Assembly: GCA_964036045.1 (NCBI GenBank)
Contig: OZ038387.1
Coordinates: forward strand, 22,629,637-22,693,636
Length of the DNA: 64,000 bases
Direction of reading: 5' to 3'
From: Eutreptiella sp. 'Long Island Sound 2002'
Lineage: Eukaryota; Euglenozoa; Euglenophyceae; Eutreptiales; Eutreptiaceae
The notes under the pieces were generated by a model. The model searched no databases, was not told the DNA's origin, and worked only from the letters and a program-made list of their open reading frames with translations. Positions 819 to 60,147 of the stretch are shown here, piece after piece; within the stretch, counting starts at the first letter, position 1, and the number at the start of each line of letters is the position of its first letter. Both the position numbers and the translations under genes were made by a program.

Positions 819-3800
819 TTAGATAGTCAGGCGTGCCGATTGAGACTGCTTCAATTCAACGTCAGCCAGCTTCTCGTAGAACTCCTCCAACTCCTCAATC
901 TCATCAGAGCCACCCATCATCAGCGGCACACGCTGGTGAACATCCTTGGGTGGAAGATCCATGATGCGGGCCATCCCCGTCGTGGACTTCCCTCCAGCCT
1001 GCTCAATCAGGTACGACATCGGTGCGGCTTCGTAAAGCAGTCGCAGCTTGCCGTTCGCGTTCTTGGAGTCGGCAGGATAGCCGAACACACCACCGTACAA
1101 CAACGTACGGTGCACATCACCAACCATCGAACCAATGTACCGGCTGGTGTACGCGCTGCCACCACGGTTGGTGCCCTTGGCAAGACTGTCGATCCATGCC
1201 TTGGTGGGCTCATCCCAGTTGTCTCGGTTGGCCTCATTGATGGAGTAGATCTTGCCACGGGGTGGCACCTTGATGTTGGGGTGTGTCAGAATGAACTCTC
1301 CAATGCTCTCGTCCAACGTGAACCCGTTCACACCATCACCAAGCGTGAACACGAAGTGCGTGGCAGACGAGTACAAGGCGTACCCGGCAGCCACCAGGGA
1401 GTTGCCAGGCTTCAATGTGGATCGCAGGCACTGCTGCATGGCCTCGGACATGTCGGCGCCTTCCTCGAAGAAATCGTCGGGCAGCACGCAGTCGTCATCC
1501 GAGTCATCGTAGATTCCGAAAATGGTGCCCACGGGAATGCCAGCATCGATGTTGGAAGACCCATCCAGAGGATCGAACACCGAGATGTACTTGCCTCCCT
1601 CCTCAACCAACACGTCCGACTCGTAGGACTCGTCCAGCTTGTTTTCCACGTTCACAGGCGCATCCTCCTCCTCAGAGGCAATCACTCCCATACGGCCAGT
1701 GAACTTCAACGCCCGCTTCAACACGTCGTTGGTGATCACGTCAAGCTTCTTCTGCTCCTCTCCCTGCACGTTGATGGATCCCCCACCTCCGGCGTATCCG
1801 GTCATGCCGTCAATCGCCGATCGCTTCACCAGCTTGGAGATGGTCTTGCAGGCCGTCTGTACGGAAGCAAACACGGACTCCAGCTCAACCAACTCGGGGT
1901 TCGCACGCGCTACCTCCAACATGAAGCGGGACAAGGTGATCCCCGTTTGGTCGCACGTCTCGGCAAACACAGGGCTCTTGATGCCCTTCACCTTCTTCTC
2001 GGAGCTGATGGCCATCATCGCCACCGTGGTGGTGGCATCAGCAGACGCCGTTGCCAACTTCACCGTCTTACGGGCCGCCTGCGAGGCCTTCAGTTCATCG
2101 TCAGCCAGCTTCTCGTAGAACTCCTCCAACTCCTCAATCTCATCAGAGCCACCCATCATCAGCGGCACACGCTGGTGAACGTCCTTGGGTGGAAGATCCA
2201 TGATGCGGGCCATCCCCGTCGTGGATTTCCCTCCAGCCTGCTCAATCAGGTACGACATCGGTGCGGCTTCGTAAAGCAGTCGCAGCTTGCCGTTCGCGTT
2301 CTTGGAGTCGGCAGGATAGCCGAACACACCACCGTACAACAACGTACGGTGCACATCACCAACCATCGAACCAATGTACCGGCTGGTGTACGCGCTGCCA
2401 CCACGGTTGGTGCCCTTGGCAAGACTGTCGATCCATGCCTTGGTGGGCTCATCCCAGTTGTCTCGGTTGGCCTCATTGATGGAGTAGATCTTGCCACGGG
2501 GTGGCACCTTGATGTTGGGGTGTGTCAGAATGAACTCTCCAATGCTCTCGTCCAACGTGAACCCGTTCACACCATCACCAAGCGTGAACACGAAGTGCGT
2601 GGCAGACGAGTACAAGGCGTACCCGGCAGCCACCAGGGAGTTGCCAGGCTTCAATGTGGATCGCAGGCACTGCTGCATGGCCTCGGACATGTCGGCGCCT
2701 TCCTCGAAGAAATCGTCGGGCAGCACGCAGTCGTCATCCGAGTCATCGTAGATTCCGAAAATGGTGCCCACGGGAATGCCAGCATCGATGTTGGAAGACC
2801 CATCCAGAGGATCGAACACCGAGATGTACTTGCCTCCCTCCTCAACCAACACGTCCGAATCGTAGGACTCGTCCAGCTTGTTTTCCACGTTCACAGGCGC
2901 ATCCTCCTCCTCAGAGGCAATCACTCCCATACGGCCAGTGAACTTCAACGCCCGCTTCAACACGTCGTTGGTGATCACGTCAAGCTTCTTCTGCTCCTCT
3001 CCCTGCACGTTGATGGATCCCCCACCTCCGGCGTATCCGGTCATGCCGTCAATCGCCGATCGCTTCACCAGCTTGGAGATGGTCTTGCAGGCCGTCTGTA
3101 CGGAAGCAAACACGGACTCCAGCTCAACCAACTCGGGGTTCGCACGCGCTACCTCCAACATGAAGCGGGACAAGGTGATCCCCGTTTGGTCGCACGTCTC
3201 GGCAAACACAGGGCTCTTGATGCCCTTCACCTTCTTCTCGGAGCTGATGGCCATCATCGCCACCGTGGTGGTGGCATCAGCAGACGCCGTTGCCAACTTC
3301 ACCGTCTTACGGGCCGCCTGCGAGGCCTTCAGTTCATCGTCAGCCAGCTTCTCGTAGAACTCCTCCAACTCCTCAATCTCATCAGAGCCACCCATCATCA
3401 GCGGCACACGCTGGTGAACGTCCTTGGGTGGAAGATCCATGATGCGGGCCATCCCCGTCGTGGATTTCCCTCCAGCCTGCTCAATCAGGTACGACATCGG
3501 TGCGGCTTCGTAAAGCAGTCGCAGCTTGCCGTTCGCGTTCTTGGAGTCGGCAGGATAGCCGAACACACCACCGTACAACAACGTACGGTGCACATCACCA
3601 ACCATCGAACCAATGTACCGGCTGGTGTACGCACTGCCACCACGGTTGGTGCCCTTGGCAAGACTGTCGATCCATGCCTTGGTGGGCTCATCCCAGTTGT
3701 CTCGGTTGGCCTCATTGATGGAGTAGATCTTGCCACGGGGTGGCACCTTGATGTTGGGGTGTGTCAGAATGAACTCTCCAATGCTCTCGTCCAACGTGAA

Positions 3801-6800
3801 CCCGTTCACACCATCACCAAGCGTGAACACGAAGTGCGTGGCAGACGAGTACAAGGCGTACCCGGCAGCCACCAGGGAGTTGCCAGGCTTCAATGTGGAT
3901 CGCAGGCACTGCTGCATGGCCTCGGACATGTCGGCGCCTTCCTCGAAGAAATCGTCGGGCAGCACGCAGTCGTCATCCGAGTCATCGTAGATTCCGAAAA
4001 TGGTGCCCACGGGAATGCCAGCATCGATGTTGGAAGACCCATCCAGAGGATCGAACACCGAGATGTACTTGCCTCCCTCCTCAACCAACACGTCCGACTC
4101 GTAGGACTCGTCCAGCTTGTTTTCCACGTTCACAGGCGCATCCTCCTCCTCAGAGGCAATCACTCCCATACGGCCAGTGAACTTCAACGCCCGCTTCAAC
4201 ACGTCGTTGGTGATCACGTCAAGCTTCTTCTGCTCCTCTCCCTGCACGTTGATGGATCCCCCACCTCCGGCGTATCCGGTCATGCCGTCAATCGCCGATC
4301 GCTTCACCAGCTTGGAGATGGTCTTGCAGGCCGTCTGTACGGAAGCAAACACGGACTCCAGCTCAACCAACTCGGGGTTCGCACGCGCTACCTCCAACAT
4401 GAAGCGGGACAAGGTGATCCCCGTTTGGTCGCACGTCTCGGCAAACACAGGGCTCTTGATGCCCTTCACCTTCTTCTCGGAGCTGATGGCCATCATCGCC
4501 ACCGTGGTGGTGGCATCAGCAGACGCCGTTGCCAACTTCACCGTCTTACGGGCCGCCTGCGAGGCCTTCAGTTCATCGTCAGCCAGCTTCTCGTAGAACT
4601 CCTCCAACTCCTCAATCTCATCAGAGCCACCCATCATCAGCGGCACACGCTGGTGAACGTCCTTGGGTGGAAGATCCATGATGCGGGCCATCCCCGTCGT
4701 GGATTTCCCTCCAGCCTGCTCAATCAGGTACGACATCGGTGCGGCTTCGTAAAGCAGTCGCAGCTTGCCGTTCGCGTTCTTGGAGTCGGCAGGATAGCCG
4801 AACACACCACCGTACAACAACGTACGGTGCACATCACCAACCATCGAACCAATGTACCGGCTGGTGTACGCGCTGCCACCACGGTTGGTGCCCTTGGCAA
4901 GACTGTCGATCCATGCCTTGGTGGGCTCATCCCAGTTGTCTCGGTTGGCCTCATTGATGGAGTAGATCTTGCCACGGGGTGGCACCTTGATGTTGGGGTG
5001 TGTCAGAATGAACTCTCCAATGCTCTCGTCCAACGTGAACCCGTTCACACCATCACCAAGCGTGAACACGAAGTGCGTGGCAGACGAGTACAAGGCGTAC
5101 CCGGCAGCCACCAGGGAGTTGCCAGGCTTCAATGTGGATCGCAGGCACTGCTGCATGGCCTCGGACATGTCGGCGCCTTCCTCGAAGAAATCGTCGGGCA
5201 GCACGCAGTCGTCATCCTCCTCAAAGATCCCGAAAATGGTGCCCACGGGAATGCCAGCATCGATGTTGGAAGACCCATCCAGAGGATCGAACACCGAGAT
5301 GTACTTGCCTCCCTCCTCAACCAACACGTCCGACTCGTAGGACTCGTCCAGCTTGTTTTCCACGTTCACAGGCGCATCCTCCTCCTCAGAGGCAATCACT
5401 CCCATACGGCCAGTGAACTTCAACGCCCGCTTCAACACGTCGTTGGTGATCACGTCAAGCTTCTTCTGCTCCTCTCCCTGCACGTTGATGGATCCCCCAC
5501 CTCCGGCGTATCCGGTCATGCCGTCAATTGCCGATCGCTTCACCAGCTTGGAGATGGTCTTGCAGGCCGTCTGTACGGAAGCAAACACAGACTCCAGCTC
5601 AACCAACTCGGGGTTTGCACGCGCTACCTCCAACATGAAGCGGGACAAGGTGATTCCCGTTTGGTCGCACGTCTCGGCAAACACAGGGCTTTTGATGCCC
5701 TTCACCTTCTTCTCGGAGCTGATGGCCATCATCGCCACCGTGGTGGTGGCATCAGCAGACGCCGTTGCCAACTTCACCGTCTTACGGGCCGCCTGCGAGG
5801 CCTTCAGTTCATCGTCAGCCAGCTTCTCGTAGAACTCCTCCAACTCCTCGATCTCATCAGAGCCACCCATCATCAGCGGCACACGCTGGTGAACGTCCTT
5901 GGGTGGAAGATCCATGATGCGGGCCATCCCCGTCGTGGATTTCCCTCCAGCCTGCTCAATCAGGTACGACATCGGTGCGGCTTCGTAAAGCAGTCGCAGC
6001 TTGCCGTTCGCGTTCTTGGAGTCGGCAGGATAGCCAAACACACCACCGTACAACAACGTACGGTGCACATCACCAACCATCGAACCAATGTACCGGCTGG
6101 TGTACGCACTGCCACCACGGTTGGTGCCCTTGGCAAGACTGTCGATCCATGCCTTGGTGGGCTCATCCCAGTTGTCTCGGTTGGCCTCATTGATGGAGTA
6201 GATCTTGCCACGGGGTGGCACCTTGATGTTGGGGTGTGTCAGAATGAACTCTCCAATGCTCTCGTCCAACGTGAACCCGTTCACACCATCACCAAGCGTG
6301 AACACGAAGTGCGTGGCAGACGAGTACAAGGCGTACCCGGCAGCCACCAGGGAGTTGCCAGGCTTCAATGTGGATCGCAGGCACTGCTGCATGGCCTCGG
6401 ACATGTCGGCGCCTTCCTCGAAGAAATCGTCGGGCAGCACGCAGTCGTCATCCTCCTCAAAGATCCCGAAAATGGTGCCCACGGGAATGCCAGCATCGAT
6501 GTTGGAAGACCCATCCAGAGGATCGAACACCGAGATGTACTTGCCTCCCTCCTCAACCAACACGTCCGACTCGTAGGACTCGTCCAGCTTGTTTTCCACG
6601 TTCACAGGCGCATCCTCCTCCTCAGAGGCAATCACTCCCATACGGCCAGTGAACTTCAACGCCCGCTTCAACACGTCGTTGGTGATCACGTCAAGCTTCT
6701 TCTGCTCCTCTCCCTGCACGTTGATGGATCCCCCACCTCCGGCGTATCCGGTCATGCCGTCAATCGCTGATCGCTTCACCAGCTTGGAGATGGTCTTGCA

Positions 6801-6953
6801 GGCCGTCTGTACGGAAGAAAACACAGACTCCAGCTCAACCAACTCGGGGTTCGCACGCGCTACCTCCAACATGAAGCGGGACAAGGTGATCCCCGTTTGG
6901 TCGCACGTCTCGGCAAACACAGGGCTCTTGATGCCCTTCACCTTCTTCTCGGA
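819..6953 (-). repeat. tandem 1236/1239-bp FBPase coding repeat, 5 units
   Basis: Direct in-frame tandem repeat. Unit length is 1236 bp for the first two units and 1239 bp for the next two, with a shorter last unit lacking the linker. Units are nearly identical, including at synonymous sites, which implies recent expansion or gene conversion. A few synonymous changes separate the upstream units (for example atcgcc versus attgcc near 5525). Confidence 0.95.
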
Positions 6954-7484
6954 GGTCACAGCCATCATGGCATACGAGGTACGCGCATCAGCCAGCCCCG
7001 TCGACAACTTCACGCTTCTGGCGGCGGTTTGAGGGACCACCACGGCCTGCAGTGGTCCTGGGACTGCAAGAGATCGGACCTGTGGCTGCTTGAAGTAGTT
7101 GTAGATCACGCTGCCCACAAGCAGAACAACCGCACTGGCAGCCAAAGGCAGGGATAAGCCGGACACAGGGGCCTGTTTCATCTGCAAAACTTCCACAGGG
7201 ATGCCAGCACCAGCGCTGACGGCTGCAGGTGCGACATGGTTGACTCGGGCCCCGGAATAGACTGTGGGCATCCGGCCGTAAACAGCCTGATTCGTTGTCG
7301 TGGTTGCTGTCGAAGCAACAGGCTGGGCAACAGTAGAGTAGAGGGAACTGGCAGGCGCCGCGGTGGTGGCTGCAATGAGTGCGCCTGCAAACATACCGAC
7401 AGAGACGGCAGCCACCCAATTTGCCCAGGGCCGGGAACCTTCCCGGGTGTCCACTGGAAGCAACCTTTGAGATGCAGACGCCAT
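819..7484 (-). CDS. plastid fructose-1,6-bisphosphatase polyprotein, five domains (gene 1)
   Basis: Encodes 2221 residues: a presequence of about 177 residues, then five FBPase domains. FBPase hydrolyses fructose-1,6-bisphosphate to fructose-6-phosphate in the Calvin cycle. In domain 1 the metal and catalytic motifs are ASEEED (286-291), DPLDGSSN (321-328), RYIGSMVGD (464-472), KLRLLYE (495-501) and EQAGGK (510-515). The loop cysteines C348 and C368 correspond to the redox pair of chloroplast FBPases; the third plant loop cysteine is Leu here. Domain boundaries at the (T/S)SEKK segment are: U1 6953-5718, U2 5717-4482, U3 4481-3243, U4 3242-2004, U5 2003-819. U1 and U2 carry IFEEDDDC; U3-U5 carry IYDDSDDDC, one residue longer. 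All five read KNANGK, whereas genes 2-4 read KNVNGK. U4 alone has DESYDSD. The ATG was chosen because the presequence is conserved from MASASQ in all four genes and diverges just upstream. The fifth domain ends in a distinct tail, KQSQSARLTI. Function is secure; processing into single enzymes is inferred. Confidence 0.93.
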   Translation of the reverse strand: MASASQRLLPVDTREGSRPWANWVAAVSVGMFAGALIAATTAAPASSLYSTVAQPVASTATTTTNQAVYGRMPTVYSGARVNHVAPAAVSAGAGIPVEVLQMKQAPVSGLSLPLAASAVVLLVGSVIYNYFKQPQVRSLAVPGPLQAVVVPQTAARSVKLSTGLADARTSYAMMAVTSEKKVKGIKSPVFAETCDQTGITLSRFMLEVARANPELVELESVFSSVQTACKTISKLVKRSAIDGMTGYAGGGGSINVQGEEQKKLDVITNDVLKRALKFTGRMGVIASEEEDAPVNVENKLDESYESDVLVEEGGKYISVFDPLDGSSNIDAGIPVGTIFGIFEEDDDCVLPDDFFEEGADMSEAMQQCLRSTLKPGNSLVAAGYALYSSATHFVFTLGDGVNGFTLDESIGEFILTHPNIKVPPRGKIYSINEANRDNWDEPTKAWIDSLAKGTNRGGSAYTSRYIGSMVGDVHRTLLYGGVFGYPADSKNANGKLRLLYEAAPMSYLIEQAGGKSTTGMARIMDLPPKDVHQRVPLMMGGSDEIEELEEFYEKLADDELKASQAARKTVKLATASADATTTVAMMAISSEKKVKGIKSPVFAETCDQTGITLSRFMLEVARANPELVELESVFASVQTACKTISKLVKRSAIDGMTGYAGGGGSINVQGEEQKKLDVITNDVLKRALKFTGRMGVIASEEEDAPVNVENKLDESYESDVLVEEGGKYISVFDPLDGSSNIDAGIPVGTIFGIFEEDDDCVLPDDFFEEGADMSEAMQQCLRSTLKPGNSLVAAGYALYSSATHFVFTLGDGVNGFTLDESIGEFILTHPNIKVPPRGKIYSINEANRDNWDEPTKAWIDSLAKGTNRGGSAYTSRYIGSMVGDVHRTLLYGGVFGYPADSKNANGKLRLLYEAAPMSYLIEQAGGKSTTGMARIMDLPPKDVHQRVPLMMGGSDEIEELEEFYEKLADDELKASQAARKTVKLATASADATTTVAMMAISSEKKVKGIKSPVFAETCDQTGITLSRFMLEVARANPELVELESVFASVQTACKTISKLVKRSAIDGMTGYAGGGGSINVQGEEQKKLDVITNDVLKRALKFTGRMGVIASEEEDAPVNVENKLDESYESDVLVEEGGKYISVFDPLDGSSNIDAGIPVGTIFGIYDDSDDDCVLPDDFFEEGADMSEAMQQCLRSTLKPGNSLVAAGYALYSSATHFVFTLGDGVNGFTLDESIGEFILTHPNIKVPPRGKIYSINEANRDNWDEPTKAWIDSLAKGTNRGGSAYTSRYIGSMVGDVHRTLLYGGVFGYPADSKNANGKLRLLYEAAPMSYLIEQAGGKSTTGMARIMDLPPKDVHQRVPLMMGGSDEIEELEEFYEKLADDELKASQAARKTVKLATASADATTTVAMMAISSEKKVKGIKSPVFAETCDQTGITLSRFMLEVARANPELVELESVFASVQTACKTISKLVKRSAIDGMTGYAGGGGSINVQGEEQKKLDVITNDVLKRALKFTGRMGVIASEEEDAPVNVENKLDESYDSDVLVEEGGKYISVFDPLDGSSNIDAGIPVGTIFGIYDDSDDDCVLPDDFFEEGADMSEAMQQCLRSTLKPGNSLVAAGYALYSSATHFVFTLGDGVNGFTLDESIGEFILTHPNIKVPPRGKIYSINEANRDNWDEPTKAWIDSLAKGTNRGGSAYTSRYIGSMVGDVHRTLLYGGVFGYPADSKNANGKLRLLYEAAPMSYLIEQAGGKSTTGMARIMDLPPKDVHQRVPLMMGGSDEIEELEEFYEKLADDELKASQAARKTVKLATASADATTTVAMMAISSEKKVKGIKSPVFAETCDQTGITLSRFMLEVARANPELVELESVFASVQTACKTISKLVKRSAIDGMTGYAGGGGSINVQGEEQKKLDVITNDVLKRALKFTGRMGVIASEEEDAPVNVENKLDESYESDVLVEEGGKYISVFDPLDGSSNIDAGIPVGTIFGIYDDSDDDCVLPDDFFEEGADMSEAMQQCLRSTLKPGNSLVAAGYALYSSATHFVFTLGDGVNGFTLDESIGEFILTHPNIKVPPRGKIYSINEANRDNWDEPTKAWIDSLAKGTNRGGSAYTSRYIGSMVGDVHRTLLYGGVFGYPADSKNANGKLRLLYEAAPMSYLIEQAGGKSTTGMARIMDLPPKDVHQRVPLMMGGSDEIEELEEFYEKLADVELKQSQSARLTI
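6954..7484 (-). other. plastid-targeting presequence with two hydrophobic segments
   Basis: Residues 1-177 of the gene 1 product. A hydrophobic stretch at about 23-42 (WVAAVSVGMFAGALIAATT) is followed by an Ala/Ser/Thr-rich region with a TATTTT run (59-64), then a second hydrophobic stretch at about 109-128 (LSLPLAASAVVLLVGSVIY). The segment ends in SVKLSTGLADARTSYAMMA. Signal segment, transit region and stop-transfer segment are the class I layout known from dinoflagellates and euglenids with three-membrane plastids. The first segment starts further from the N-terminus than in a typical signal peptide. Genes 2 and 4 have the same presequence; gene 3 has it with a frameshift. Confidence 0.75.
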
Positions 7485-7506
7485 GGCAGAAGCTACTGGA
7501 GACTGT
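7485..7506 (-). promoter_or_regulatory. possible splice acceptor just before the gene 1 start
   Basis: Read on the minus strand, the ATG is preceded by tctccagtagcttctgcc and then by acag. Gene 4 has the same 18 nt plus acag, and the two genes diverge immediately beyond it (tatttaacag versus tttcacag). The break in similarity at an AG suggests a 3' splice site, either of a 5'-UTR intron or of spliced-leader trans-splicing. It could also be a chance duplication endpoint. Confidence 0.4.
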
Positions 7507-11097: not shown

Positions 11098-11113
11098 TTT
11101 CCAAGCTTTTTTG

Positions 11114-36800: not shown

Positions 36801-38754
36801 GTGTCAGAATGAACTCTCCAATGCTCTCGTCCAACGTGAACCCGTTCACACCATCACCAAGCGTGAACACGAAGTGCGTGGCAGACGAGTACAAGGCGTA
36901 CCCGGCAGCCACCAGGGAGTTGCCAGGCTTCAATGTGGATCGCAGGCACTGCTGCATGGCCTCGGACATGTCGGCGCCTTCCTCGAAGAAATCGTCGGGC
37001 AGCACGCAGTCGTCATCCTCCTCAAAGATCCCGAAAATGGTGCCCACGGGAATGCCAGCATCGACGTTGGAAGACCCATCCAGAGGATCGAACACCGAGA
37101 TGTACTTGCCTCCCTCCTCAACCAACACGTCCGACTCGTAGGACTCGTCCAGCTTGTTTTCCACGTTCACAGGCGCATCCTCCTCCTCAGAGGCAATCAC
37201 TCCCATACGGCCAGTGAACTTCAACGCCCGCTTCAACACGTCGTTGGTGATCACGTCAAGCTTCTTCTGCTCCTCTCCCTGCACGTTGATGGATCCCCCA
37301 CCTCCAGCGTATCCGGTCATGCCGTCAATTGCCGATCGCTTCACCAGCTTGGAGATGGTCTTGCAGGCCGTCTGTACGGAAGCAAACACGGACTCCAGCT
37401 CAACCAACTCGGGGTTCGCACGCGCTACCTCCAACATGAAGCGGGACAAGGTGATTCCCGTTTGGTCGCACGTCTCGGCAAACACAGGGCTCTTGATGCC
37501 CTTCACCTTCTTCTCGGAGCTGATGGCCATCATCGCCACCGTGGTGGTGGCATCAGCAGACGCCGTTGCCAACTTCACCGTCTTACGGGCCGCCTGCGAG
37601 GCCTTCAGTTCATCGTCAGCCAGCTTCTCGTAGAACTCCTCCAACTCCTCGATCTCATCAGAGCCACCCATCATCAGCGGCACACGCTGGTGAACGTCCT
37701 TGGGTGGAAGATCCATGATGCGGGCCATCCCCGTCGTGGATTTCCCTCCAGCCTGCTCAATCAGGTACGACATCGGTGCGGCTTCGTAAAGCAGTCGCAG
37801 CTTGCCGTTCACGTTCTTGGAGTCAGCAGGATAGCCGAACACACCACCGTACAACAACGTACGGTGCACATCACCAACCATCGAACCAATGTACCGGCTG
37901 GTGTACGCGCTGCCACCACGGTTGGTGCCCTTGGCAAGACTGTCGATCCATGCCTTGGTGGGCTCATCCCAGTTGTCTCGGTTGGCCTCATTGATGGAGT
38001 AGATCTTGCCACGGGGTGGCACCTTGATGTTGGGGTGTGTCAGAATGAACTCTCCAATGCTCTCGTCCAACGTGAACCCGTTCACACCATCACCAAGCGT
38101 GAACACGAAGTGCGTGGCAGACGAGTACAAGGCGTACCCGGCAGCCACCAGGGAGTTGCCAGGCTTCAATGTGGATCGCAGGCACTGCTGCATGGCCTCG
38201 GACATGTCGGCGCCTTCCTCGAAGAAATCGTCGGGCAGCACGCAGTCGTCATCCTCCTCAAAGATTCCGAAAATGGTGCCCACGGGAATGCCAGCATCGA
38301 CGTTGGAAGACCCATCCAGAGGATCGAACACCGAGATGTACTTGCCTCCCTCCTCAACCAACACGTCCGACTCGTAGGACTCGTCCAGCTTGTTTTCCAC
38401 GTTCACAGGCGCATCCTCCTCCTCAGAGGCAATCACTCCCATACGGCCAGTGAACTTCAACGCCCGCTTCAACACGTCGTTGGTGATCACGTCAAGCTTC
38501 TTCTGCTCCTCTCCCTGCACGTTGATGGATCCCCCACCTCCAGCGTATCCGGTCATGCCGTCAATTGCCGATCGCTTCACCAGCTTGGAGATGGTCTTGC
38601 AGGCCGTCTGTACGGAAGCAAACACGGACTCCAGCTCAACCAACTCGGGGTTCGCACGCGCTACCTCCAACATGAAGCGGGACAAGGTGATCCCCGTTTG
38701 GTCGCACGTCTCGGCAAACACAGGGCTCTTGATGCCCTTCACCTTCTTCTCGGA
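33868..38754 (-). repeat. tandem 1236-bp FBPase coding repeat, 4 units
   Basis: Head-to-tail in-frame units of 1236 bp, with the last unit shorter and ending in the distinct tail. Units 2 and 3 are especially alike (both GGSVYT and the same silent changes), pointing to a recent internal duplication or conversion. Confidence 0.95.
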
Positions 38755-39285
38755 GGTCACAGCCATCATGGCATACGAGGTACGCGCATCAGCCAGCCCC
38801 GTCGACAACTTCACGCTTCTGGCGGCGGTTTGAGGGACCACCACGGCCTGCAGTGGTCCTGGGACTGCAAGAGATCGGACCTGTGGCTGCTTGAAGTAGT
38901 TGTAGATCACGCTGCCCACAAGCAGAACAACCGCACTGGCAGCCAAAGGCAGGGACAAGCCGGACACAGGGGCCTGTTTCATCTGCAAAACTTCCACAGG
39001 GATGCCAGCACCAGCGCTGACGGCTGCAGGTGCGACATGGTTGACTCGGGCCCCGGAATAGACTGTGGGCATCCGGCCGTAAACAGCCTGATTCGTTGTC
39101 GTGGTTGCTGTCGAAGCAACAGGCTGGGCAACAGTAGAGTAGAGGGAACTGGCAGGCGCCGCGGTGGTGGCTGCAATGAGTGCGCCTGCAAACATACCGA
39201 CAGAGACGGCAGCCACCCAATTTGCCCAGGGCCGGGAACCTTCCCGGGTGTCCACTGGAAGCAACCTTTGAGATGCAGACGCCAT
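33868..39285 (-). CDS. plastid fructose-1,6-bisphosphatase polyprotein, four domains (gene 2)
   Basis: 1805 residues: the same presequence as gene 1 with minor changes, then four FBPase domains, U1 38754-37519, U2 37518-36283, U3 36282-35047, U4 35046-33868. All keep the catalytic motifs and the two loop cysteines. U1-U3 carry IFEEDDDCVLPDDFFEEG; U4 carries DDDCMLPDDFQEG, one residue shorter. All four read SSNVDAG (gene 1: SSNIDAG) and KNVNGK. The C-terminal tail is FYTNLADDELKQSQSARLII with a TAA stop. An upstream in-frame ATG at 39438 would add 51 residues (MPRFFQVSG...), but the added part is not shared with the other genes and the presequence is complete without it, so the ATG at 39285 is preferred. 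Unit-to-unit identity is very high. Confidence 0.93.
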   Translation of the reverse strand: MASASQRLLPVDTREGSRPWANWVAAVSVGMFAGALIAATTAAPASSLYSTVAQPVASTATTTTNQAVYGRMPTVYSGARVNHVAPAAVSAGAGIPVEVLQMKQAPVSGLSLPLAASAVVLLVGSVIYNYFKQPQVRSLAVPGPLQAVVVPQTAARSVKLSTGLADARTSYAMMAVTSEKKVKGIKSPVFAETCDQTGITLSRFMLEVARANPELVELESVFASVQTACKTISKLVKRSAIDGMTGYAGGGGSINVQGEEQKKLDVITNDVLKRALKFTGRMGVIASEEEDAPVNVENKLDESYESDVLVEEGGKYISVFDPLDGSSNVDAGIPVGTIFGIFEEDDDCVLPDDFFEEGADMSEAMQQCLRSTLKPGNSLVAAGYALYSSATHFVFTLGDGVNGFTLDESIGEFILTHPNIKVPPRGKIYSINEANRDNWDEPTKAWIDSLAKGTNRGGSAYTSRYIGSMVGDVHRTLLYGGVFGYPADSKNVNGKLRLLYEAAPMSYLIEQAGGKSTTGMARIMDLPPKDVHQRVPLMMGGSDEIEELEEFYEKLADDELKASQAARKTVKLATASADATTTVAMMAISSEKKVKGIKSPVFAETCDQTGITLSRFMLEVARANPELVELESVFASVQTACKTISKLVKRSAIDGMTGYAGGGGSINVQGEEQKKLDVITNDVLKRALKFTGRMGVIASEEEDAPVNVENKLDESYESDVLVEEGGKYISVFDPLDGSSNVDAGIPVGTIFGIFEEDDDCVLPDDFFEEGADMSEAMQQCLRSTLKPGNSLVAAGYALYSSATHFVFTLGDGVNGFTLDESIGEFILTHPNIKVPPRGKIYSINEANRDNWDEPTKAWIDSLAKGTNRGGSVYTSRYIGSMVGDVHRTLLYGGVFGYPADSKNVNGKLRLLYEAAPMSYLIEQAGGKSTTGMARIMDLPPKDVHQRVPLMMGGSDEIEELEEFYEKLADDELKASQAARKTVKLATASADATTTVAMMAISSEKKVKGIKSPVFAETCDQTGITLSRFMLEVARANPELVELESVFASVQTACKTISKLVKRSAIDGMTGYAGGGGSINVQGEEQKKLDVITNDVLKRALKFTGRMGVIASEEEDAPVNVENKLDESYESDVLVEEGGKYISVFDPLDGSSNVDAGIPVGTIFGIFEEDDDCVLPDDFFEEGADMSEAMQQCLRSTLKPGNSLVAAGYALYSSATHFVFTLGDGVNGFTLDESIGEFILTHPNIKVPPRGKIYSINEANRDNWDEPTKAWIDSLAKGTNRGGSVYTSRYIGSMVGDVHRTLLYGGVFGYPADSKNVNGKLRLLYEAAPMSYLIEQAGGKSTTGMARIMDLPPKDVHQRVPLMMGGSDEIEELEEFYEKLADDELKASQAARKTVKLATASADATTTVAMMAISSEKKVKGIKSPVFAETCDQTGITLSRFMLEVARANPELVELESVFASVQTACKTISKLVKRSAIDGMTGYAGGGGSINVQGEEQKKLDVITNDVLKRALKFTGRMGVIASEEEDAPVNVENKLDESYESDVLVEEGGKYISVFDPLDGSSNVDAGIPVGTIFGIFEEDDDCMLPDDFQEGADMSEAMQQCLRSTLKPGNSLVAAGYALYSSATHFVFTLGDGVNGFTLDESIGEFILTHPNIKVPPRGKIYSINEANRDNWDEPTKAWIDSLAKGTNRGGSAYTSRYIGSMVGDVHRTLLYGGVFGYPADSKNVNGKLRLLYEAAPMSYLIEQAGGKSTTGMARIMDLPPKDVHQRVPLMMGGSDEIEELEEFYTNLADDELKQSQSARLII

Positions 39286-47152: not shown

Positions 47153-49567
47153 CTAACTGATTAGGCGTGCAGACTGGGACTGCTTAAGATCGTCGTCAGC
47201 AAGGTTGGTGTAAAACTCCTCCAACTCCTCGATCTCATCGGAACCACCCATCATCAGCGGCACACGCTGGTGAACGTCCTTGGGTGGAAGATCCATGATG
47301 CGGGCCATCCCCGTCGTGGATTTCCCTCCAGCCTGCTCAATCAGGTACGACATCGGTGCGGCTTCGTAAAGCAGTCGCAGCTTGCCGTTCACGTTCTTGG
47401 AGTCGGCAGGATAGCCGAACACACCACCGTACAACAACGTACGGTGCACATCACCAACCATCGAACCAATGTACCGGCTGGTGTACACGCTGCCACCACG
47501 GTTGGTGCCCTTGGCAAGACTGTCGATCCATGCCTTGGTGGGCGCATCCCAGTTGTCTCGGTTGGCCTCATTGATGGAGTAGATCTTGCCACGGGGTGGC
47601 ACCTTGATGTTGGGGTGTGTCAGAATGAACTCTCCAATGCTCTCGTCCAACGTGAACCCGTTCACACCATCACCAAGCGTGAACACGAAGTGCGTGGCAG
47701 ACGAGTACAAGGCGTACCCGGCAGCCACCAGGGAGTTGCCAGGCTTCAATGTGGATCGCAGGCACTGCTGCATGGCCTCGGACATGTCGGCGCCTTCCTC
47801 GAAGAAATCGTCGGGCAGCACGCAGTCGTCATCCTCCTCAAAGATTCCGAAAATGGTGCCCACGGGAATGCCAGCATCGATGTTGGAAGACCCATCCAGA
47901 GGATCGAACACCGAGATGTACTTGCCTCCCTCCTCAACCAACACGTCCGACTCGTAGGACTCGTCCAGCTTGTTTTCCACGTTCACAGGCGCATCCTCCT
48001 CCTCAGAGGCAATCACTCCCATACGGCCAGTGAACTTCAACGCCCGCTTCAACACGTCGTTGGTGATCACGTCAAGCTTCTTCTGCTCCTCTCCCTGCAC
48101 GTTGATGGATCCTCCACCTCCGGCGTATCCGGTCATGCCGTCAATCGCCGATCGCTTCACCAGCTTGGAGATGGTCTTGCAGGCCGTCTGTACGGAAGCA
48201 AACACAGACTCCAGCTCAACCAACTCGGGGTTCGCACGCGCTACCTCCAACATGAAGCGGGACAAGGTGATCCCCGTTTGGTCGCACGTCTCGGCAAACA
48301 CAGGGCTCTTGATGCCCTTCACTTTCTTCTCGGAGCTGATGGCCATCATCGCTACCGTGGTGGTGGCATCAGCAGACGCCGTTGCCAACTTCACCGTCTT
48401 ACGGGCCGCCTGCGAGGCCTTCAGTTCATCGTCAGCCAGCTTCTCGTAGAACTCCTCCAACTCCTCAATCTCATCGGAACCACCCATCATCAGCGGCACA
48501 CGCTGGTGAACGTCCTTGGGTGGAAGATCCATGATGCGGGCCATCCCCGTCGTGGATTTCCCTCCAGCCTGCTCAATCAGGTACGACATCGGTGCGGCTT
48601 CGTAAAGCAGTCGCAGCTTGCCGTTCACGTTCTTGGAGTCGGCAGGATAGCCGAACACACCACCGTACAACAACGTACGGTGCACATCACCAACCATCGA
48701 ACCAATGTACCGGCTGGTGTACACGCTGCCACCACGGTTGGTGCCCTTGGCAAGACTGTCGATCCATGCCTTGGTGGGCTCATCCCAGTTGTCTCGGTTG
48801 GCCTCATTGATGGAGTAGATCTTGCCACGGGGTGGCACCTTGATGTTGGGGTGTGTCAGAATGAACTCTCCAATGCTCTCGTCCAACGTGAACCCGTTCA
48901 CACCATCACCAAGCGTGAACACGAAGTGCGTGGCAGACGAGTACAAGGCGTACCCGGCAGCCACCAGGGAGTTGCCAGGCTTCAATGTGGATCGCAGGCA
49001 CTGCTGCATGGCCTCGGACATGTCGGCGCCTTCCTGGAAATCGTCGGGCAGCACGCAGTCGTCATCCTCCTCAAAGATTCCGAAAATGGTGCCCACGGGA
49101 ATGCCAGCATCGACGTTGGAAGACCCATCCAGAGGATCGAACACCGAGATGTACTTGCCTCCCTCCTCAACCAACACGTCCGACTCGTAGGACTCGTCCA
49201 GCTTGTTTTCCACGTTCACAGGCGCATCCTCCTCCTCAGAGGCAATCACTCCCATACGGCCAGTGAACTTCAACGCCCGCTTCAACACGTCGTTGGTGAT
49301 CACGTCAAGCTTCTTCTGCTCCTCTCCCTGCACGTTGATGGATCCTCCACCTCCGGCGTATCCGGCCATGCCGTCAATTGCCGATCGCTTCACCAGCTTG
49401 GAGATGGTCTTGCAGGCCGTCTGTACGGAAGCAAACACGGACTCCAGCTCAACCAACTCGGGGTTCGCACGCGCTACCTCCAACATGAAGCGGGACAAGG
49501 TGATCCCCGTTTGGTCGCACGTCTCGGCAAACACAGGGCTCTTGATGCCCTTCACCTTCTTCTCGGA
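47153..49567 (-). repeat. tandem FBPase coding repeat, 2 units
   Basis: Two head-to-tail units with a 1233-bp period, the shortest array in the window. Confidence 0.95.
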
Positions 49568-49714
49568 GGTCACAGCCATCATGGCATACGAGGTACGCGC
49601 ATCAGCCAGCCCCGTCGACAACTTCACGCTTCTGGCGGCGGTTTGAGGGACCACCACGGCCTGCAGTGGTCCTGGGACTGCAAGAGATCGGACCTGTGGC
49701 TGCTTGAAGTAGTT

Positions 49715-49735
49715 GTAGATCACGCAGAACAACCG
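49715..49735 (-). other. 11-bp deletion site in the gene 3 presequence
   Basis: gatcacgcagaacaac here versus gatcacgctgcccacaagca in genes 1, 2 and 4. The deletion endpoints share a single c. Frame change is +1 (11 is not a multiple of three). Confidence 0.9.
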
Positions 49736-50087
49736 CACTGGCAGCCAAAGGCAGGGACAAGCCGGACACAGGGGCCTGTTTCATCTGCAAAACTTCCACA
49801 GGGATGCCAGCACCAGCGCTGACGGCTGCAGGTGCGACATGGTTGACTCGGGCCCCGGAATAGACTGTGGGCATCCGGCCGTAAACAGCCTGATTCGTTG
49901 TCGTGGTTGCTGTCGAAGCAACAGGCTGGGCAACAGTAGAGTAGAGGGAACTGGCAGGCGCCGCGGTGGTGGCTGCAATGAGTGCGCCTGCAAACATACC
50001 GACAGAGACGGCAGCCACCCAATTGGCCCAGGGCCGGGAACCTTCCCGGGTGTCCACTGGAAGCAACCTTTGAGATGCAGACGCCAT

Positions 50088-50544: not shown

Positions 50545-50918
50545 GGGAATGTTTGCCCGGCGCGCGCCCGGCGCATGCCCGGCGCGCTACCTTTGTATTA
50601 AGTATCCTACCTCTAGCCCCAAGTTTATCCTCACCTTGGTAGGTCCCCCAAGTAGACCGCACTAGACTGCAAACCTTCCCTGCAAGGCACCTTGTATAAG
50701 CCGAAGTATGAGAATTCAACAACACAAAATGTCACTCCCACCACTTCCAACCACCACCACTGCCATCGTCATAAACTGGGTGCAAAGGATGGGCCAAATT
50801 CTTCGACACAGCGAGAAGGTACTCCAAATTGTTTTGTGAGGTGGGGGCAAAAACAGGCACAGGTGGGGAATGGTCAAAAAAAGATGCCTGGCGCGCTCCC
50901 GGCGCGCTAACGCTCCCC
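50545..50918 (+). repeat. GCCCGGCGC-ended repeat, copy 2
   Basis: Close match to 14521-14877 in order and content, with ttggtaggtc replacing aagggaagtc in the interior. Left end has three gcccggcgc motifs, right end gcctggcgcgctcccggcgc. Confidence 0.75.
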
Positions 50919-51327: not shown

Positions 51328-51614
51328 TTCTTTTTTTTTGACTGACTCCAGAAGTTCAAAGAGTACTCAAGACTGTGCTTGGAAAAGGGGGCGACTCCAG
51401 CATATGATACAGTGGATCCCCGCAACGCGGGGCACATGGCAAAGACCCAGATTTCACATGCGTATACCAGAGGGCTCTCTGATGCGGTAGGCAAAACCGC
51501 CACGCCATATGGCAAGCCTATAATGCGTAAGAGTTAAGGGGGGAGAAAAGACATGCTGGATCACGTGTGTGCCATTCCCCACAGGTCCTCAAGGGTGACA
51601 AGCTTTCGTCGCTT
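51328..51614 (-). repeat. poly-A-ended dispersed repeat, copy B
   Basis: T-run then gactgactccagaagttcaa, through to gatcacgtgtgtgcc and tcctcaagggtgacaagctt, matching copy A almost block by block. On the minus strand a frame of about 60 codons (MPYGVAVLPTASESPLVYAC and on) is open in copies B and C but broken in copy A; its meaning is unclear. Confidence 0.7.
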
Positions 51615-51696
51615 TATTTGCAGAAACAGAAATTGCAGCATAAAACGAAAGATTTCAGCACAAGATACGTTCAACGGGCTGCTAATGTACAGAGAC

Positions 51697-51939: not shown

Positions 51940-51959
51940 TGCCAGGCCAGTCCTTTAAA

Positions 51960-53102: not shown

Positions 53103-53106
53103 TGTT

Positions 53107-54735: not shown

Positions 54736-57700
54736 TCAAACAATCAAACGTGCAGACTGGGACTGCTTCAGTTCATCGTCAGCAAGGTTGGTGTAAAACT
54801 CCTCCAACTCCTCAATCTCATCGGAACCACCCATCATCAGCGGCACACGCTGGTGAACGTCCTTGGGTGGAAGATCCATGATGCGGGCCATCCCCGTCGT
54901 GGATTTCCCTCCAGCCTGCTCAATCAGGTACGACATCGGTGCGGCTTCGTAAAGCAGTCGCAGCTTGCCGTTCACGTTCTTGGAGTCGGCAGGATAGCCG
55001 AACACACCACCGTACAACAACGTACGGTGCACATCACCAACCATCGAACCAATGTACCGGCTGGTGTACACGCTGCCACCACGGTTGGTGCCCTTGGCAA
55101 GACTGTCGATCCATGCCTTGGTGGGCTCATCCCAGTTGTCTCGGTTGGCCTCATTGATGGAGTAGATCTTGCCACGGGGTGGCACCTTGATGTTGGGGTG
55201 TGTCAGAATGAACTCTCCAATGCTCTCGTCCAACGTGAACCCGTTCACACCATCACCAAGCGTGAACACGAAGTGCGTGGCAGACGAGTACAAGGCGTAC
55301 CCGGCAGCCACCAGGGAGTTGCCAGGCTTCAATGTGGATCGCAGGCACTGCTGCATGGCCTCGGACATGTCGGCGCCTTCCTGGAAATCGTCGGGCAGCA
55401 TGCAGTCGTCATCCTCCTCAAAGATTCCGAAAATGGTGCCCACGGGAATGCCAGCATCGACGTTGGAAGACCCATCCAGAGGATCGAACACCGAGATGTA
55501 CTTGCCTCCCTCCTCAACCAACACGTCCGACTCGTAGGACTCGTCCAGCTTGTTTTCCACGTTCACAGGCGCATCCTCCTCCTCAGAGGCAATCACTCCC
55601 ATACGGCCAGTGAACTTCAACGCCCGCTTCAACACGTCGTTGGTGATCACGTCAAGCTTCTTCTGCTCCTCTCCCTGCACGTTGATGGATCCCCCACCTC
55701 CGGCGTATCCGGTCATGCCGTCAATCGCCGATCGCTTCACCAGCTTGGAGATGGTCTTGCAGGCCGTCTGTACGGAAGCAAACACGGACTCCAGCTCAAC
55801 CAACTCGGGGTTCGCACGCGCTACCTCCAACATGAAGCGGGACAAGGTGATCCCCGTTTGGTCGCACGTCTCGGCAAACACAGGGCTCTTGATGCCCTTC
55901 ACCTTCTTCTCGGAGCTGATGGCCATCATCGCCACCGTGGTGGTGGCATCAGCAGACGCCGTTGCCAACTTCACCGTCTTACGGGCCGCCTGCGAGGCCT
56001 TCAGTTCATCGTCAGCCAGCTTCTCGTAGAACTCCTCCAACTCCTCGATCTCATCAGAGCCACCCATCATCAGCGGCACACGCTGGTGAACGTCCTTGGG
56101 TGGAAGATCCATGATGCGGGCCATCCCCGTCGTGGATTTCCCTCCAGCCTGCTCAATCAGGTACGACATCGGTGCGGCTTCGTAAAGCAGTCGCAGCTTG
56201 CCGTTCACGTTCTTGGAGTCGGCAGGATAGCCGAACACACCACCGTACAACAACGTACGGTGCACATCACCAACCATCGAACCAATGTACCGGCTGGTGT
56301 ACGCGCTGCCACCACGGTTGGTGCCCTTGGCAAGACTGTCGATCCATGCCTTGGTGGGCTCATCCCAGTTGTCTCGGTTGGCCTCATTGATGGAGTAGAT
56401 CTTGCCACGGGGTGGCACCTTGATGTTGGGGTGTGTCAGAATGAACTCTCCAATGCTCTCGTCCAACGTGAACCCGTTCACACCATCACCAAGCGTGAAC
56501 ACGAAGTGCGTGGCAGACGAGTACAAGGCGTACCCGGCAGCCACCAGGGAGTTGCCAGGCTTCAATGTGGATCGCAGGCACTGCTGCATGGCCTCGGACA
56601 TGTCGGCGCCTTCCTGGAAATCGTCGGGCAGCATGCAGTCGTCATCCTCCTCAAAGATTCCGAAAATGGTGCCCACGGGAATGCCAGCATCGACGTTGGA
56701 AGACCCATCCAGAGGATCGAACACCGAGATGTACTTGCCTCCCTCCTCAACCAACACGTCCGACTCGTAGGACTCGTCCAGCTTGTTTTCCACGTTCACA
56801 GGCGCATCCTCCTCCTCAGAGGCAATCACTCCCATACGGCCAGTGAACTTCAACGCCCGCTTCAACACGTCGTTGGTGATCACGTCAAGCTTCTTCTGCT
56901 CCTCTCCCTGCACGTTGATGGATCCCCCACCTCCGGCGTATCCGGTCATGCCGTCAATCGCCGATCGCTTCACCAGCTTGGAGATGGTCTTGCAGGCCGT
57001 CTGTACGGAAGCAAACACGGACTCCAGCTCAACCAACTCGGGGTTCGCACGCGCTACCTCCAACATGAAGCGGGACAAGGTGATCCCCGTTTGGTCGCAC
57101 GTCTCGGCAAACACAGGGCTCTTGATGCCCTTCACCTTCTTCTCGGAGCTGATGGCCATCATCGCCACCGTGGTGGTGGCATCAGCAGACGCCGTTGCCA
57201 ACTTCACCGTCTTACGGGCCGCCTGCGAGGCCTTCAGTTCATCGTCAGCCAGCTTCTCGTAGAACTCCTCCAACTCCTCGATCTCATCAGAGCCACCCAT
57301 CATCAGCGGCACACGCTGGTGAACGTCCTTGGGTGGAAGATCCATGATGCGGGCCATCCCCGTCGTGGATTTCCCTCCAGCCTGCTCAATCAGGTACGAC
57401 ATCGGTGCGGCTTCGTAAAGCAGTCGCAGCTTGCCGTTCACGTTCTTGGAGTCGGCAGGATAGCCGAACACACCACCGTACAACAACGTACGGTGCACAT
57501 CACCAACCATCGAACCAATGTACCGGCTGGTGTACACGCTGCCACCACGGTTGGTGCCCTTGGCAAGACTGTCGATCCATGCCTTGGTGGGCTCATCCCA
57601 GTTGTCTCGGTTGGCCTCATTGATGGAGTAGATCTTGCCACGGGGTGGCACCTTGATGTTGGGGTGTGTCAGAATGAACTCTCCAATGCTCTCGTCCAAC

Positions 57701-59616
57701 GTGAACCCGTTCACACCATCACCAAGCGTGAACACGAAGTGCGTGGCAGACGAGTACAAGGCGTACCCGGCAGCCACCAGGGAGTTGCCAGGCTTCAATG
57801 TGGATCGCAGGCACTGCTGCATGGCCTCGGACATGTCGGCGCCTTCCTGGAAATCGTCGGGCAGCATGCAGTCGTCATCCTCCTCAAAGATTCCGAAAAT
57901 GGTGCCCACGGGAATGCCAGCATCGACGTTGGAAGACCCATCCAGAGGATCGAACACCGAGATGTACTTGCCTCCCTCCTCAACCAACACGTCCGACTCG
58001 TAGGACTCGTCCAGCTTGTTTTCCACGTTCACAGGCGCATCCTCCTCCTCAGAGGCAATCACTCCCATACGGCCAGTGAACTTCAACGCCCGCTTCAACA
58101 CGTCGTTGGTGATCACGTCAAGCTTCTTCTGCTCCTCTCCCTGCACGTTGATGGATCCCCCACCTCCAGCGTATCCGGTCATGCCGTCAATCGCCGATCG
58201 CTTCACCAGCTTGGAGATGGTCTTGCAGGCCGTCTGTACGGAAGCAAACACGGACTCCAGCTCAACCAACTCGGGGTTCGCACGCGCTACCTCCAACATG
58301 AAGCGGGACAAGGTGATCCCCGTTTGGTCGCACGTCTCGGCAAACACAGGGCTCTTGATGCCCTTCACCTTCTTCTCGGAGCTGATGGCCATCATCGCCA
58401 CCGTGGTGGTGGCATCAGCAGACGCCGTTGCCAACTTCACCGTCTTACGGGCCGCCTGCGAGGCCTTCAGTTCATCGTCAGCCAGCTTCTCGTAGAACTC
58501 CTCCAACTCCTCGATCTCATCAGAGCCACCCATCATCAGCGGCACACGCTGGTGAACGTCCTTGGGTGGAAGATCCATGATGCGGGCCATCCCCGTCGTG
58601 GATTTCCCTCCAGCCTGCTCAATCAGGTACGACATCGGTGCGGCTTCGTAAAGCAGTCGCAGCTTGCCGTTCACGTTCTTGGAGTCGGCAGGATAGCCGA
58701 ACACACCACCGTACAACAACGTACGGTGCACATCACCAACCATCGAGCCAATGTACCGGCTGGTGTACACGCTGCCACCACGGTTGGTGCCCTTGGCAAG
58801 ACTGTCGATCCATGCCTTGGTGGGCTCATCCCAGTTGTCTCGGTTGGCCTCATTGATGGAGTAGATCTTGCCACGGGGTGGCACCTTGATGTTGGGGTGT
58901 GTCAGAATGAACTCTCCAATGCTCTCGTCCAACGTGAACCCGTTCACACCATCACCAAGCGTGAACACGAAGTGCGTGGCAGACGAGTACAAGGCGTACC
59001 CGGCAGCCACCAGGGAGTTGCCAGGCTTCAATGTGGATCGCAGGCACTGCTGCATGGCCTCGGACATGTCGGCGCCTTCCTGGAAGAAATCGTCGGGCAG
59101 CACGCAGTCGTCATCCTCCTCAAAGATCCCGAAAATGGTGCCCACGGGAATGCCAGCATCGATGTTGGAAGACCCATCCAGAGGATCGAACACCGAGATG
59201 TACTTGCCTCCCTCCTCAACCAACACGTCCGACTCGTAGGACTCGTCCAGCTTGTTTTCCACGTTCACAGGCGCATCCTCCTCCTCAGAGGCAATCACTC
59301 CCATACGGCCAGTGAACTTCAACGCCCGCTTCAACACGTCGTTGGTGATCACGTCAAGCTTCTTCTGCTCCTCTCCCTGCACGTTGATGGATCCCCCACC
59401 TCCGGCGTATCCGGTCATGCCGTCAATTGCCGATCGCTTCACCAGCTTGGAAATGGTCTTGCAGGCCGTCTGTACGGAAGAAAACACAGACTCCAGCTCA
59501 ACCAACTCGGGGTTCGCACGCGCTACCTCCAACATGAAGCGGGACAAGGTGATCCCCGTTTGGTCGCACGTCTCGGCAAACACAGGGCTCTTGATGCCCT
59601 TCACCTTCTTCTCGGA
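54736..59616 (-). repeat. tandem 1233/1236-bp FBPase coding repeat, 4 units
   Basis: Head-to-tail in-frame units; periods 1236, 1233, 1233 bp. Units 2, 3 and 4 share the short acidic loop (DDFQEG). Confidence 0.95.
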
Positions 59617-60147
59617 GGTTACAGCCATCATGGCATACGAGGTACGCGCATCAGCCAGCCCCGTCGACAACTTCACGCTTCTGGCGGCGGTTTGAGGGAC
59701 CACCACGGCCTGCAGTGGTCCTGGGACTGCAAGAGATCGGACCTGTGGCTGCTTGAAGTAGTTGTAGATCACGCTGCCCACAAGCAGAACAACCGCACTG
59801 GCAGCCAAAGGCAGGGACAAGCCGGACACAGGGGCCTGTTTCATCTGCAAAACTTCCACAGGGATGCCAGCACCAGCGCTGACGGCTGCAGGTGCGACAT
59901 GGTTGACTCGGGCCCCGGAATAGACTGTGGGCATCCGGCCGTAAACAGCCTGATTCGTTGTCGTGGTTGCTGTCGAAGCAACAGGCTGGGCAACAGTAGA
60001 GTAGAGGGAACTGGCAGGCGCCGCGGTGGTGGCTGCAATGAGTGCGCCTGCAAACATACCGACAGAGACGGCAGCCACCCAATTGGCCCAGGGCCGGGAA
60101 CCTTCCCGGGTGTCCACTGGAAGCAACCTTTGAGATGCAGACGCCAT
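54736..60147 (-). CDS. plastid fructose-1,6-bisphosphatase polyprotein, four domains (gene 4)
   Basis: 1803 residues: complete presequence, then four FBPase domains, U1 59616-58381 (1236 bp), U2 58380-57148, U3 57147-55915 (1233 bp each), U4 55914-54736. U1 carries IFEEDDDCVLPDDFFQEG and SSNIDAG; U2-U4 carry DDDCMLPDDFQEG and SSNVDAG, one residue shorter in the redox loop. U1 has VFSSVQ like the first unit of gene 1, and the two genes share 22 bp before the ATG, so genes 1 and 4 have related 5' ends even though the later units follow the gene 2 type. All catalytic motifs and the two loop cysteines are present. Stop codon TGA, followed in frame by TTG and TAG. The tail is FYTNLADDELKQSQSARLIV. 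Confidence 0.93.
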   Translation of the reverse strand: MASASQRLLPVDTREGSRPWANWVAAVSVGMFAGALIAATTAAPASSLYSTVAQPVASTATTTTNQAVYGRMPTVYSGARVNHVAPAAVSAGAGIPVEVLQMKQAPVSGLSLPLAASAVVLLVGSVIYNYFKQPQVRSLAVPGPLQAVVVPQTAARSVKLSTGLADARTSYAMMAVTSEKKVKGIKSPVFAETCDQTGITLSRFMLEVARANPELVELESVFSSVQTACKTISKLVKRSAIDGMTGYAGGGGSINVQGEEQKKLDVITNDVLKRALKFTGRMGVIASEEEDAPVNVENKLDESYESDVLVEEGGKYISVFDPLDGSSNIDAGIPVGTIFGIFEEDDDCVLPDDFFQEGADMSEAMQQCLRSTLKPGNSLVAAGYALYSSATHFVFTLGDGVNGFTLDESIGEFILTHPNIKVPPRGKIYSINEANRDNWDEPTKAWIDSLAKGTNRGGSVYTSRYIGSMVGDVHRTLLYGGVFGYPADSKNVNGKLRLLYEAAPMSYLIEQAGGKSTTGMARIMDLPPKDVHQRVPLMMGGSDEIEELEEFYEKLADDELKASQAARKTVKLATASADATTTVAMMAISSEKKVKGIKSPVFAETCDQTGITLSRFMLEVARANPELVELESVFASVQTACKTISKLVKRSAIDGMTGYAGGGGSINVQGEEQKKLDVITNDVLKRALKFTGRMGVIASEEEDAPVNVENKLDESYESDVLVEEGGKYISVFDPLDGSSNVDAGIPVGTIFGIFEEDDDCMLPDDFQEGADMSEAMQQCLRSTLKPGNSLVAAGYALYSSATHFVFTLGDGVNGFTLDESIGEFILTHPNIKVPPRGKIYSINEANRDNWDEPTKAWIDSLAKGTNRGGSVYTSRYIGSMVGDVHRTLLYGGVFGYPADSKNVNGKLRLLYEAAPMSYLIEQAGGKSTTGMARIMDLPPKDVHQRVPLMMGGSDEIEELEEFYEKLADDELKASQAARKTVKLATASADATTTVAMMAISSEKKVKGIKSPVFAETCDQTGITLSRFMLEVARANPELVELESVFASVQTACKTISKLVKRSAIDGMTGYAGGGGSINVQGEEQKKLDVITNDVLKRALKFTGRMGVIASEEEDAPVNVENKLDESYESDVLVEEGGKYISVFDPLDGSSNVDAGIPVGTIFGIFEEDDDCMLPDDFQEGADMSEAMQQCLRSTLKPGNSLVAAGYALYSSATHFVFTLGDGVNGFTLDESIGEFILTHPNIKVPPRGKIYSINEANRDNWDEPTKAWIDSLAKGTNRGGSAYTSRYIGSMVGDVHRTLLYGGVFGYPADSKNVNGKLRLLYEAAPMSYLIEQAGGKSTTGMARIMDLPPKDVHQRVPLMMGGSDEIEELEEFYEKLADDELKASQAARKTVKLATASADATTTVAMMAISSEKKVKGIKSPVFAETCDQTGITLSRFMLEVARANPELVELESVFASVQTACKTISKLVKRSAIDGMTGYAGGGGSINVQGEEQKKLDVITNDVLKRALKFTGRMGVIASEEEDAPVNVENKLDESYESDVLVEEGGKYISVFDPLDGSSNVDAGIPVGTIFGIFEEDDDCMLPDDFQEGADMSEAMQQCLRSTLKPGNSLVAAGYALYSSATHFVFTLGDGVNGFTLDESIGEFILTHPNIKVPPRGKIYSINEANRDNWDEPTKAWIDSLAKGTNRGGSVYTSRYIGSMVGDVHRTLLYGGVFGYPADSKNVNGKLRLLYEAAPMSYLIEQAGGKSTTGMARIMDLPPKDVHQRVPLMMGGSDEIEELEEFYTNLADDELKQSQSARLIV

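Follow-up and report, generated by a model that had tools for sequence, protein, structure and literature searches.

Four genes carrying repeated units of fructose-1,6-bisphosphatase (FBPase) were identified on the minus strand of a 64,000-nucleotide stretch of contig OZ038387.1 (hereafter the window). Gene 1 (819..7484) encodes a presequence and five units (2221 aa, 238.7 kDa), and genes 2 (33868..39285 from its ATG; 1805 aa, 194.0 kDa) and 4 (54736..60147; 1803 aa, 193.9 kDa) each encode a presequence and four units. The layout of these three is the same, namely ATG, MASASQRLLPVD, a presequence of 174 residues, repeats 411-413 residues long and a final unit of 395-397 residues, with frames open over 1803-2221 codons and no internal stops. 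A Pfam scan placed PF00316 and PF18913, each in 5, 4, 2 and 4 copies, in genes 1-4 above the curated cut-off. The E values of PF00316 across the units (8.7e-101 to 1e-249) exclude a chance match to FBPase. The motif FDPLDGSSN occurs 15 times in the six-frame translation, every time on the minus strand and inside the four genes.

Gene 3 is a broken copy. Its two units share an open frame of 861 aa (47153..49738, minus strand), or 809 aa from the first Met (47153..49582), which does not include the presequence; the latter lies out of frame at 49602..50087, starting from an ATG at 50087 and ending at a stop after 161 aa. This presequence lacks 11 bases that the other three have in the second hydrophobic segment, and the loss puts it out of frame with the FBPase units. 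A presequence followed by at least two near-identical units without stops was thus found in three of the four genes, and 13 of the 15 units share the frame of a presequence upstream of them. An earlier note on this DNA had described four genes with 5, 4, 2 and 4 in-frame domains, fifteen in all, behind one conserved presequence; the four minus-strand genes, the counts, the shared presequence and fifteen units with catalytic motifs all hold, but the genes that are intact number three. Gene 3 is either a pseudogene or, less likely, the source of an untargeted enzyme. Long plus-strand frames (840-6770, 33829-39351 and 54706-60171; 1821-1976 codons) run antisense and in register with the FBPase genes. 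A coding role for them was rejected: only TTA, CTA and TCA codons can stop such a frame, these make up 2 of the 6114 unit codons, and the length of the frames follows from one open unit having been copied 15 times.

All 15 units possess the motifs EEED, DPLDGSSN, YIGS..R..YGG and GKLRLLYE, which we take to be the metal and substrate motifs of class I FBPase. In a 23-row alignment (the query and 22 bacterial relatives) the residues E139, E140, D172-D175 to N179, G345, L347-L349, Y351 and E352 are invariant, and the units were found to have the FBPase fold. Judged by these features, the units are class-I fructose-1,6-bisphosphatases. A PDB search with the presequence and unit 1 gave FBPase-family matches and none to the presequence; weaker matches (E 0.03 or worse) were to inositol-phosphatase-type chains and one unrelated chain. 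Relatives elsewhere comprised one locus in viral contigs (43% identical) and, among prokaryote genomes, a collection without eukaryotes by design, 507 matches of which the best 80 are 39-44% identical. These relatives served only as an alignment for folding.

The units share the enzyme family and the redox loop of the spinach, pea and moss chloroplast enzymes (presumably PDB 1spi, 1d9q and 5iz1, respectively). The regulatory cysteines of the pea loop are, we assume, C153, C173 and C178; the first two positions are occupied by cysteine in 15 of 15 units, whereas the third is Leu. The identification of a plastid-type FBPase in the earlier note is supported. The three plant enzymes are, as far as is known, made as single-unit precursors. 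Differences among the units gather in this loop with its presumed redox cysteines, as 7 of the 14 variable columns of the core (columns 21-379 of the unit alignment) fall in columns 168-183, with differences in both amino acids and length. Such variation could tune regulation unit by unit.

The presequences of genes 1 (6963..7484), 2 (38764..39285) and 4 (59626..60147), all minus strand and 522 nt long, are nearly identical, with one difference between genes 1 and 2, two between genes 1 and 4 and one between genes 2 and 4. Within the first 190 residues, Kyte-Doolittle windows of 19 residues exceed 1.4 at centres 29-36 and 113-123 only, marking hydrophobic segments that span about residues 20-45 and 104-132 and are centred near residues 33 and 118 in gene 1. 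Beyond residue 190 of gene 1 the highest window reaches 1.23. Residues 45-106 are rich in Ser and Thr (21%) and Ala (19%), with one acidic and three basic residues, and an AMM end precedes unit 1. It has been described that 60 +/- 8 residues separate the two hydrophobic segments of euglenophyte class I presequences (PMC6242988). The two segments found here lie about 60 residues apart, within that range as far as hydropathy alone can tell, and the intact precursors are accordingly predicted to carry a class-I bipartite plastid signal.

Successive units are joined by conserved spacers. The 16-residue stretch KLATASADATTTVAMM, found between units 1 and 2 of gene 1 at 5727..5774 (minus strand), is present in all 11 internal spacers and in none of the four last units. 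The internal spacers are identical in protein, and their 55 pairs reveal one synonymous variant and no amino-acid change, so little variation that constraint on their sequence is shown only weakly. A gap-free alignment of QTAARSVKLSTGLADARTSYAMMAV, the tail of the presequence, with the internal spacer QAARKTVKLATASADATTTVAMMAI scored 67, a value reached by none of 5000 shuffles; the repeated block is therefore a transit-peptide tail plus the enzyme. The decamer AMMAVTSEKK stands before unit 1 and AMMAISSEKK at the internal junctions, and in gene 1 the first and second junction decamers are 402 residues (43.4 kDa) apart. The linker of the RBCS polyprotein is reported to be NMAAMTGEKD in Euglena longa, with Gly as first residue in E. 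gracilis (PMC4938576). AMMAVTSEKK is identical to GMAAMTGEKD at 5 of 10 positions and is the sole decamer, of 576 in the presequence and unit 1, with at least 4 identities; AMMAISSEKK matches at 4 of 10 in all 11 spacers. What makes the likeness to a Euglena-type linker suggestive is its position, more than the score by itself.

The units are 98.2-100% identical over codons 1-379. In 105 pairwise comparisons of the unit core the proportions of synonymous (pS) and nonsynonymous (pN) differences were 0.024 and 0.005, a ratio of 0.21, and substitutions among units are biased to synonymous sites. The unit tree joins the four first units with a support of 0.95 and, weakly (0.40), the last units of genes 2-4; clusters confined to one gene are formed by units 3-5 in gene 1 and by units 2-3 in gene 2. 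From these groupings it follows that both whole-gene copying and within-gene unit turnover took place.

We propose that, in an alga with a complex plastid (most likely a euglenophyte), each of the three intact nuclear genes, the fourth being a decayed copy, encodes a polyprotein in which a single class-I bipartite targeting sequence precedes four to five redox-type plastid FBPases. This precursor would enter the secretory route by its first hydrophobic segment, the second would keep it in the vesicle membrane, and the chain would be imported whole into a three-membrane plastid, so that one import event would deliver four to five FBPases. A stromal protease may then cut at the AMMA-type junctions, ahead of unit 1 and within each spacer. 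FBPase is a homotetramer, and the released subunits of about 40-43 kDa would form ordinary tetramers. The repeats themselves may have arisen when a segment comprising the tail of the transit peptide and the mature enzyme was duplicated. The reading frames, units, presequence, spacer homology, intact catalytic motifs and synonymous bias are all read directly from the DNA; a single transcript, targeting, cleavage, tetramer assembly and the organism are what we infer from them. We consider a polyprotein mechanism highly probable, whichever of two algal groups, the euglenophytes or the dinoflagellates (both mentioned in the earlier note), owns it. The anatomy (one bipartite presequence, near-identical units, conserved spacers, absence of stops, synonymous bias) fits the polyprotein strategy put forward in the earlier note. 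The strong dosage amplification supposed alongside it finds less support, and multi-unit Rubisco transcripts in Prorocentrum cordatum are described as consistently low-expressed (PMC10666404).

Several observations weigh against this account. The decapeptide match is modest, since a score of 5 was reached by 348 of 20000 shuffles of the 45-residue region, a score of at least 5 by 673 of 5000 shuffles of a 585-residue stretch, and the score of 4 of the internal AMMAISSEKK by 4849 of 20000 shuffles of its region. The glycine of the published linker is absent, with Ser in its place, and the spacer, running 16 residues past the end of the last unit, is longer than a decapeptide. The structure model shows the spacer that follows unit 1 as the continuation of a long helix (residues 393-445) instead of a loose segment, with a confidence score (predicted local distance difference test, pLDDT) that drops there from about 90 to 48; since the alignment has no relatives over this part, the model says little. 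The first hydrophobic segment contains a Phe (FAGA), which makes a dinoflagellate-type Phe motif possible. In gene 2 no difference separates unit 2 from unit 3 over the 379 compared codons, so that a copy-number error of the assembly is possible at that place. Gene 3, finally, shows that polyprotein genes of this kind decay.

The same mechanism might instead operate in a peridinin dinoflagellate such as Prorocentrum, an explanation that differs in the organism alone and that we regard as unlikely, though with a real share of the probability. Dinoflagellates make polyproteins of light-harvesting complex (LHC) proteins, luciferase and form II Rubisco (PMC11453091), among them the Rubisco of P. 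donghaiense (PMC3747160) and the LHC of Symbiodinium (PMC3480386); their class I presequences share the plan seen here (PMC3747160), multi-unit genes for Rubisco and HSP70 are described in P. cordatum (PMC10666404), and several intronless copies on one strand, typical of dinoflagellates, would suit such a host. The linker is nevertheless closer to the Euglena decapeptide than to the two reported dinoflagellate junctions. SPLR, WQKK, FVAP and FVGA were not found in the translations, and the 15-base core of the dinoflagellate spliced leader (DinoSL), the relic of which is optional in dinoflagellates, was not found anywhere in the window at up to 2 mismatches. Together with the junction decamer and the 60-residue rule, these absences favour a euglenophyte, which the sequence features make the probable owner. 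In four intergenic stretches the observed/expected ratio of CpG is 0.44-0.55; to our knowledge, CpG depletion does not tell a dinoflagellate from a euglenid.

An assembly artefact or a dead gene family, with mis-assembled repeats or an array no longer expressed, would accommodate the frameshift of gene 3 and the identical units of gene 2. It appears improbable in view of units that have their own substitutions and position-specific ends, the grouping of the first units, the synonymous bias and the three long open genes. Least probable of all is an uncut chain acting as a tethered, single-chain FBPase oligomer, which could draw on the exactly four units (the tetramer number) of genes 2 and 4, two of the three intact genes, on the spacer modelled as a helix and on the E. 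longa RBCS polyprotein having been seen only uncut (PMC4938576), but which sits poorly with genes of 5 and 2 units and with spacers that are homologous to the presequence tail, where a cut is expected, and resemble a cleaved linker.

For the polyprotein family itself, the borders of the genes bear on how the copies have been maintained. The only conserved 5' flank is the final 7-22 bases before the ATG (7485..7506 in gene 1, minus strand): genes 1 and 4 agree over 22 bases, gene 3 agrees with both over 10, and all four genes agree over 7. AG stands immediately before CTTCTGCC in genes 1, 3 and 4 and not in gene 2, and is a possible splice acceptor; a transcript join, with a spliced leader or none, may lie just 5' of CTTCTGCCATGG. 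The 3' flanks of the four genes are unrelated. Among the four last units, pairwise differences rise from 53 of 2149 over codons 1-360 to 17 of 120 over codons 361-380 and 48 of 102 over the last 17 codons, where 31 of the 48 are synonymous and one Leu is written CTG, CTC, CTA and TTG. The contrast of near-identical gene interiors with unrelated flanks and a steep rise of divergence in the last codons is an unexplained feature. We read the four genes as apparently old paralogues with a homogenised interior. Conversion templated by RNA and reaching no further than a splice site would account for the 5' border, though not for the sparing of the 3' untranslated region (UTR). The fullest form of the proposal is tentative: every spacer would be a reused transit-peptide tail, one protease site would mature the first and internal units, and conversion that does not extend beyond the transcribed coding region would maintain the identity of the copies. 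Such conversion would possibly be templated by spliced mRNA, since homology ends 7-22 bases from the ATG beside the candidate splice acceptor. Simple tandem duplication with shared flanks was rejected, as no flank-to-flank similarity extends beyond dispersed repeats and minisatellites, and simple retroposition with UTRs is disfavoured by the unrelated 3' flanks, the lack of a leader relic and a 3' divergence that is graded, not abrupt.

The primary paper on the chloroplast phosphoglycerate kinase (PGK) polyprotein of E. gracilis is reportedly that of Nowitzki et al. 2004. This two-unit protein (PMC7729029) is among the closest likenesses: a nuclear-encoded Calvin-cycle enzyme of near-identical full-length units in one precursor imported and then cut in the plastid, as would be the case here, though the three intact FBPase genes have 4-5 units. 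Euglena polyproteins also include RBCS, LHC and EF-Ts (PMC4938576, PMC6242988, PMC12965295). The RBCS and LHC precursors share the class I presequence and a linker with an MxA...EK pattern; RBCS has up to eight units, with cleavage reported for E. gracilis, and the Euglena linker is ten residues with Gly, whereas the spacer here is longer, transit-peptide-like and has AMMA(V/I)(T/S)SEKK with Ser for Gly. Form II Rubisco of Prorocentrum is similar in its two hydrophobic regions around the transit peptide, its 3-4 units, short spacer and many gene copies (PMC3747160, PMC10666404), but is another enzyme with a 21-residue spacer, and its proposed cut site WQKKELAAA is absent here. Three FBPase isoforms, two with a thioredoxin motif, are described for E. 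longa, in excerpts that do not mention repeats (PMC7580956). The earlier note saw the strategy as extended to a Calvin-cycle enzyme; FBPase as cargo stands, while the step into the Calvin cycle had already been taken by PGK (PMC7729029) and by Rubisco subunits in both groups. It also knew of no described FBPase polyprotein, and none was found in the open-access literature either, in searches that were partly of best-ranked matches and do not establish absence from print. As far as these reached, FBPase is a new cargo of an otherwise ordinary strategy.

The range of plastid polyproteins would thereby grow beyond antenna proteins, PGK and the subunits of Rubisco and take in a Calvin-cycle enzyme that is redox-type, tetrameric and flux-controlling. 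This opens the question of whether polyproteins offer a general solution to the import of abundant stromal enzymes through three membranes. The homology of spacer and transit peptide points to a way in which such genes come about and lends itself to a clear test of the cut site, and the sharpness of the gene borders is relevant to the means by which dispersed copies stay identical in complex algae.

Fragments of retroelements and dispersed repeats are found in the gaps between the FBPase genes. From among the 184 other frames of at least 90 codons, 20 of the longest were scanned against Pfam; only zf-RVT, RNase H and reverse transcriptase exceeded the curated cut-offs, other matches lying below, and no host gene was recognised among the 20. 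Scans of the window for tRNA and Rfam families gave 0 matches. A LINE-type (long interspersed nuclear element) remnant at 25076-27244 (minus strand) has PF00078 reverse transcriptase and PF13966 zf-RVT in two adjoining open stretches, and an RNase H frame at 18344-19285 (minus strand; PF00075, E 1.7e-22) is perhaps part of this retroelement or of another. Dispersed repeats of about 210-350 bases fall into two families, 88-94% identical, located at 10815-11100, 51331-51615 and 63508-63749 and at 14527-14877 and 50566-50918, respectively. Degenerate GGCGGTTGG-type minisatellites lie upstream of gene 4 (60924-61374) and downstream of gene 2 (32726-32875). An element of about 670 bases is present in two copies (43532-44201 and 61408-62075), of which the central 443 bases (96% identical) are inverted between copies and the ends have the same orientation.

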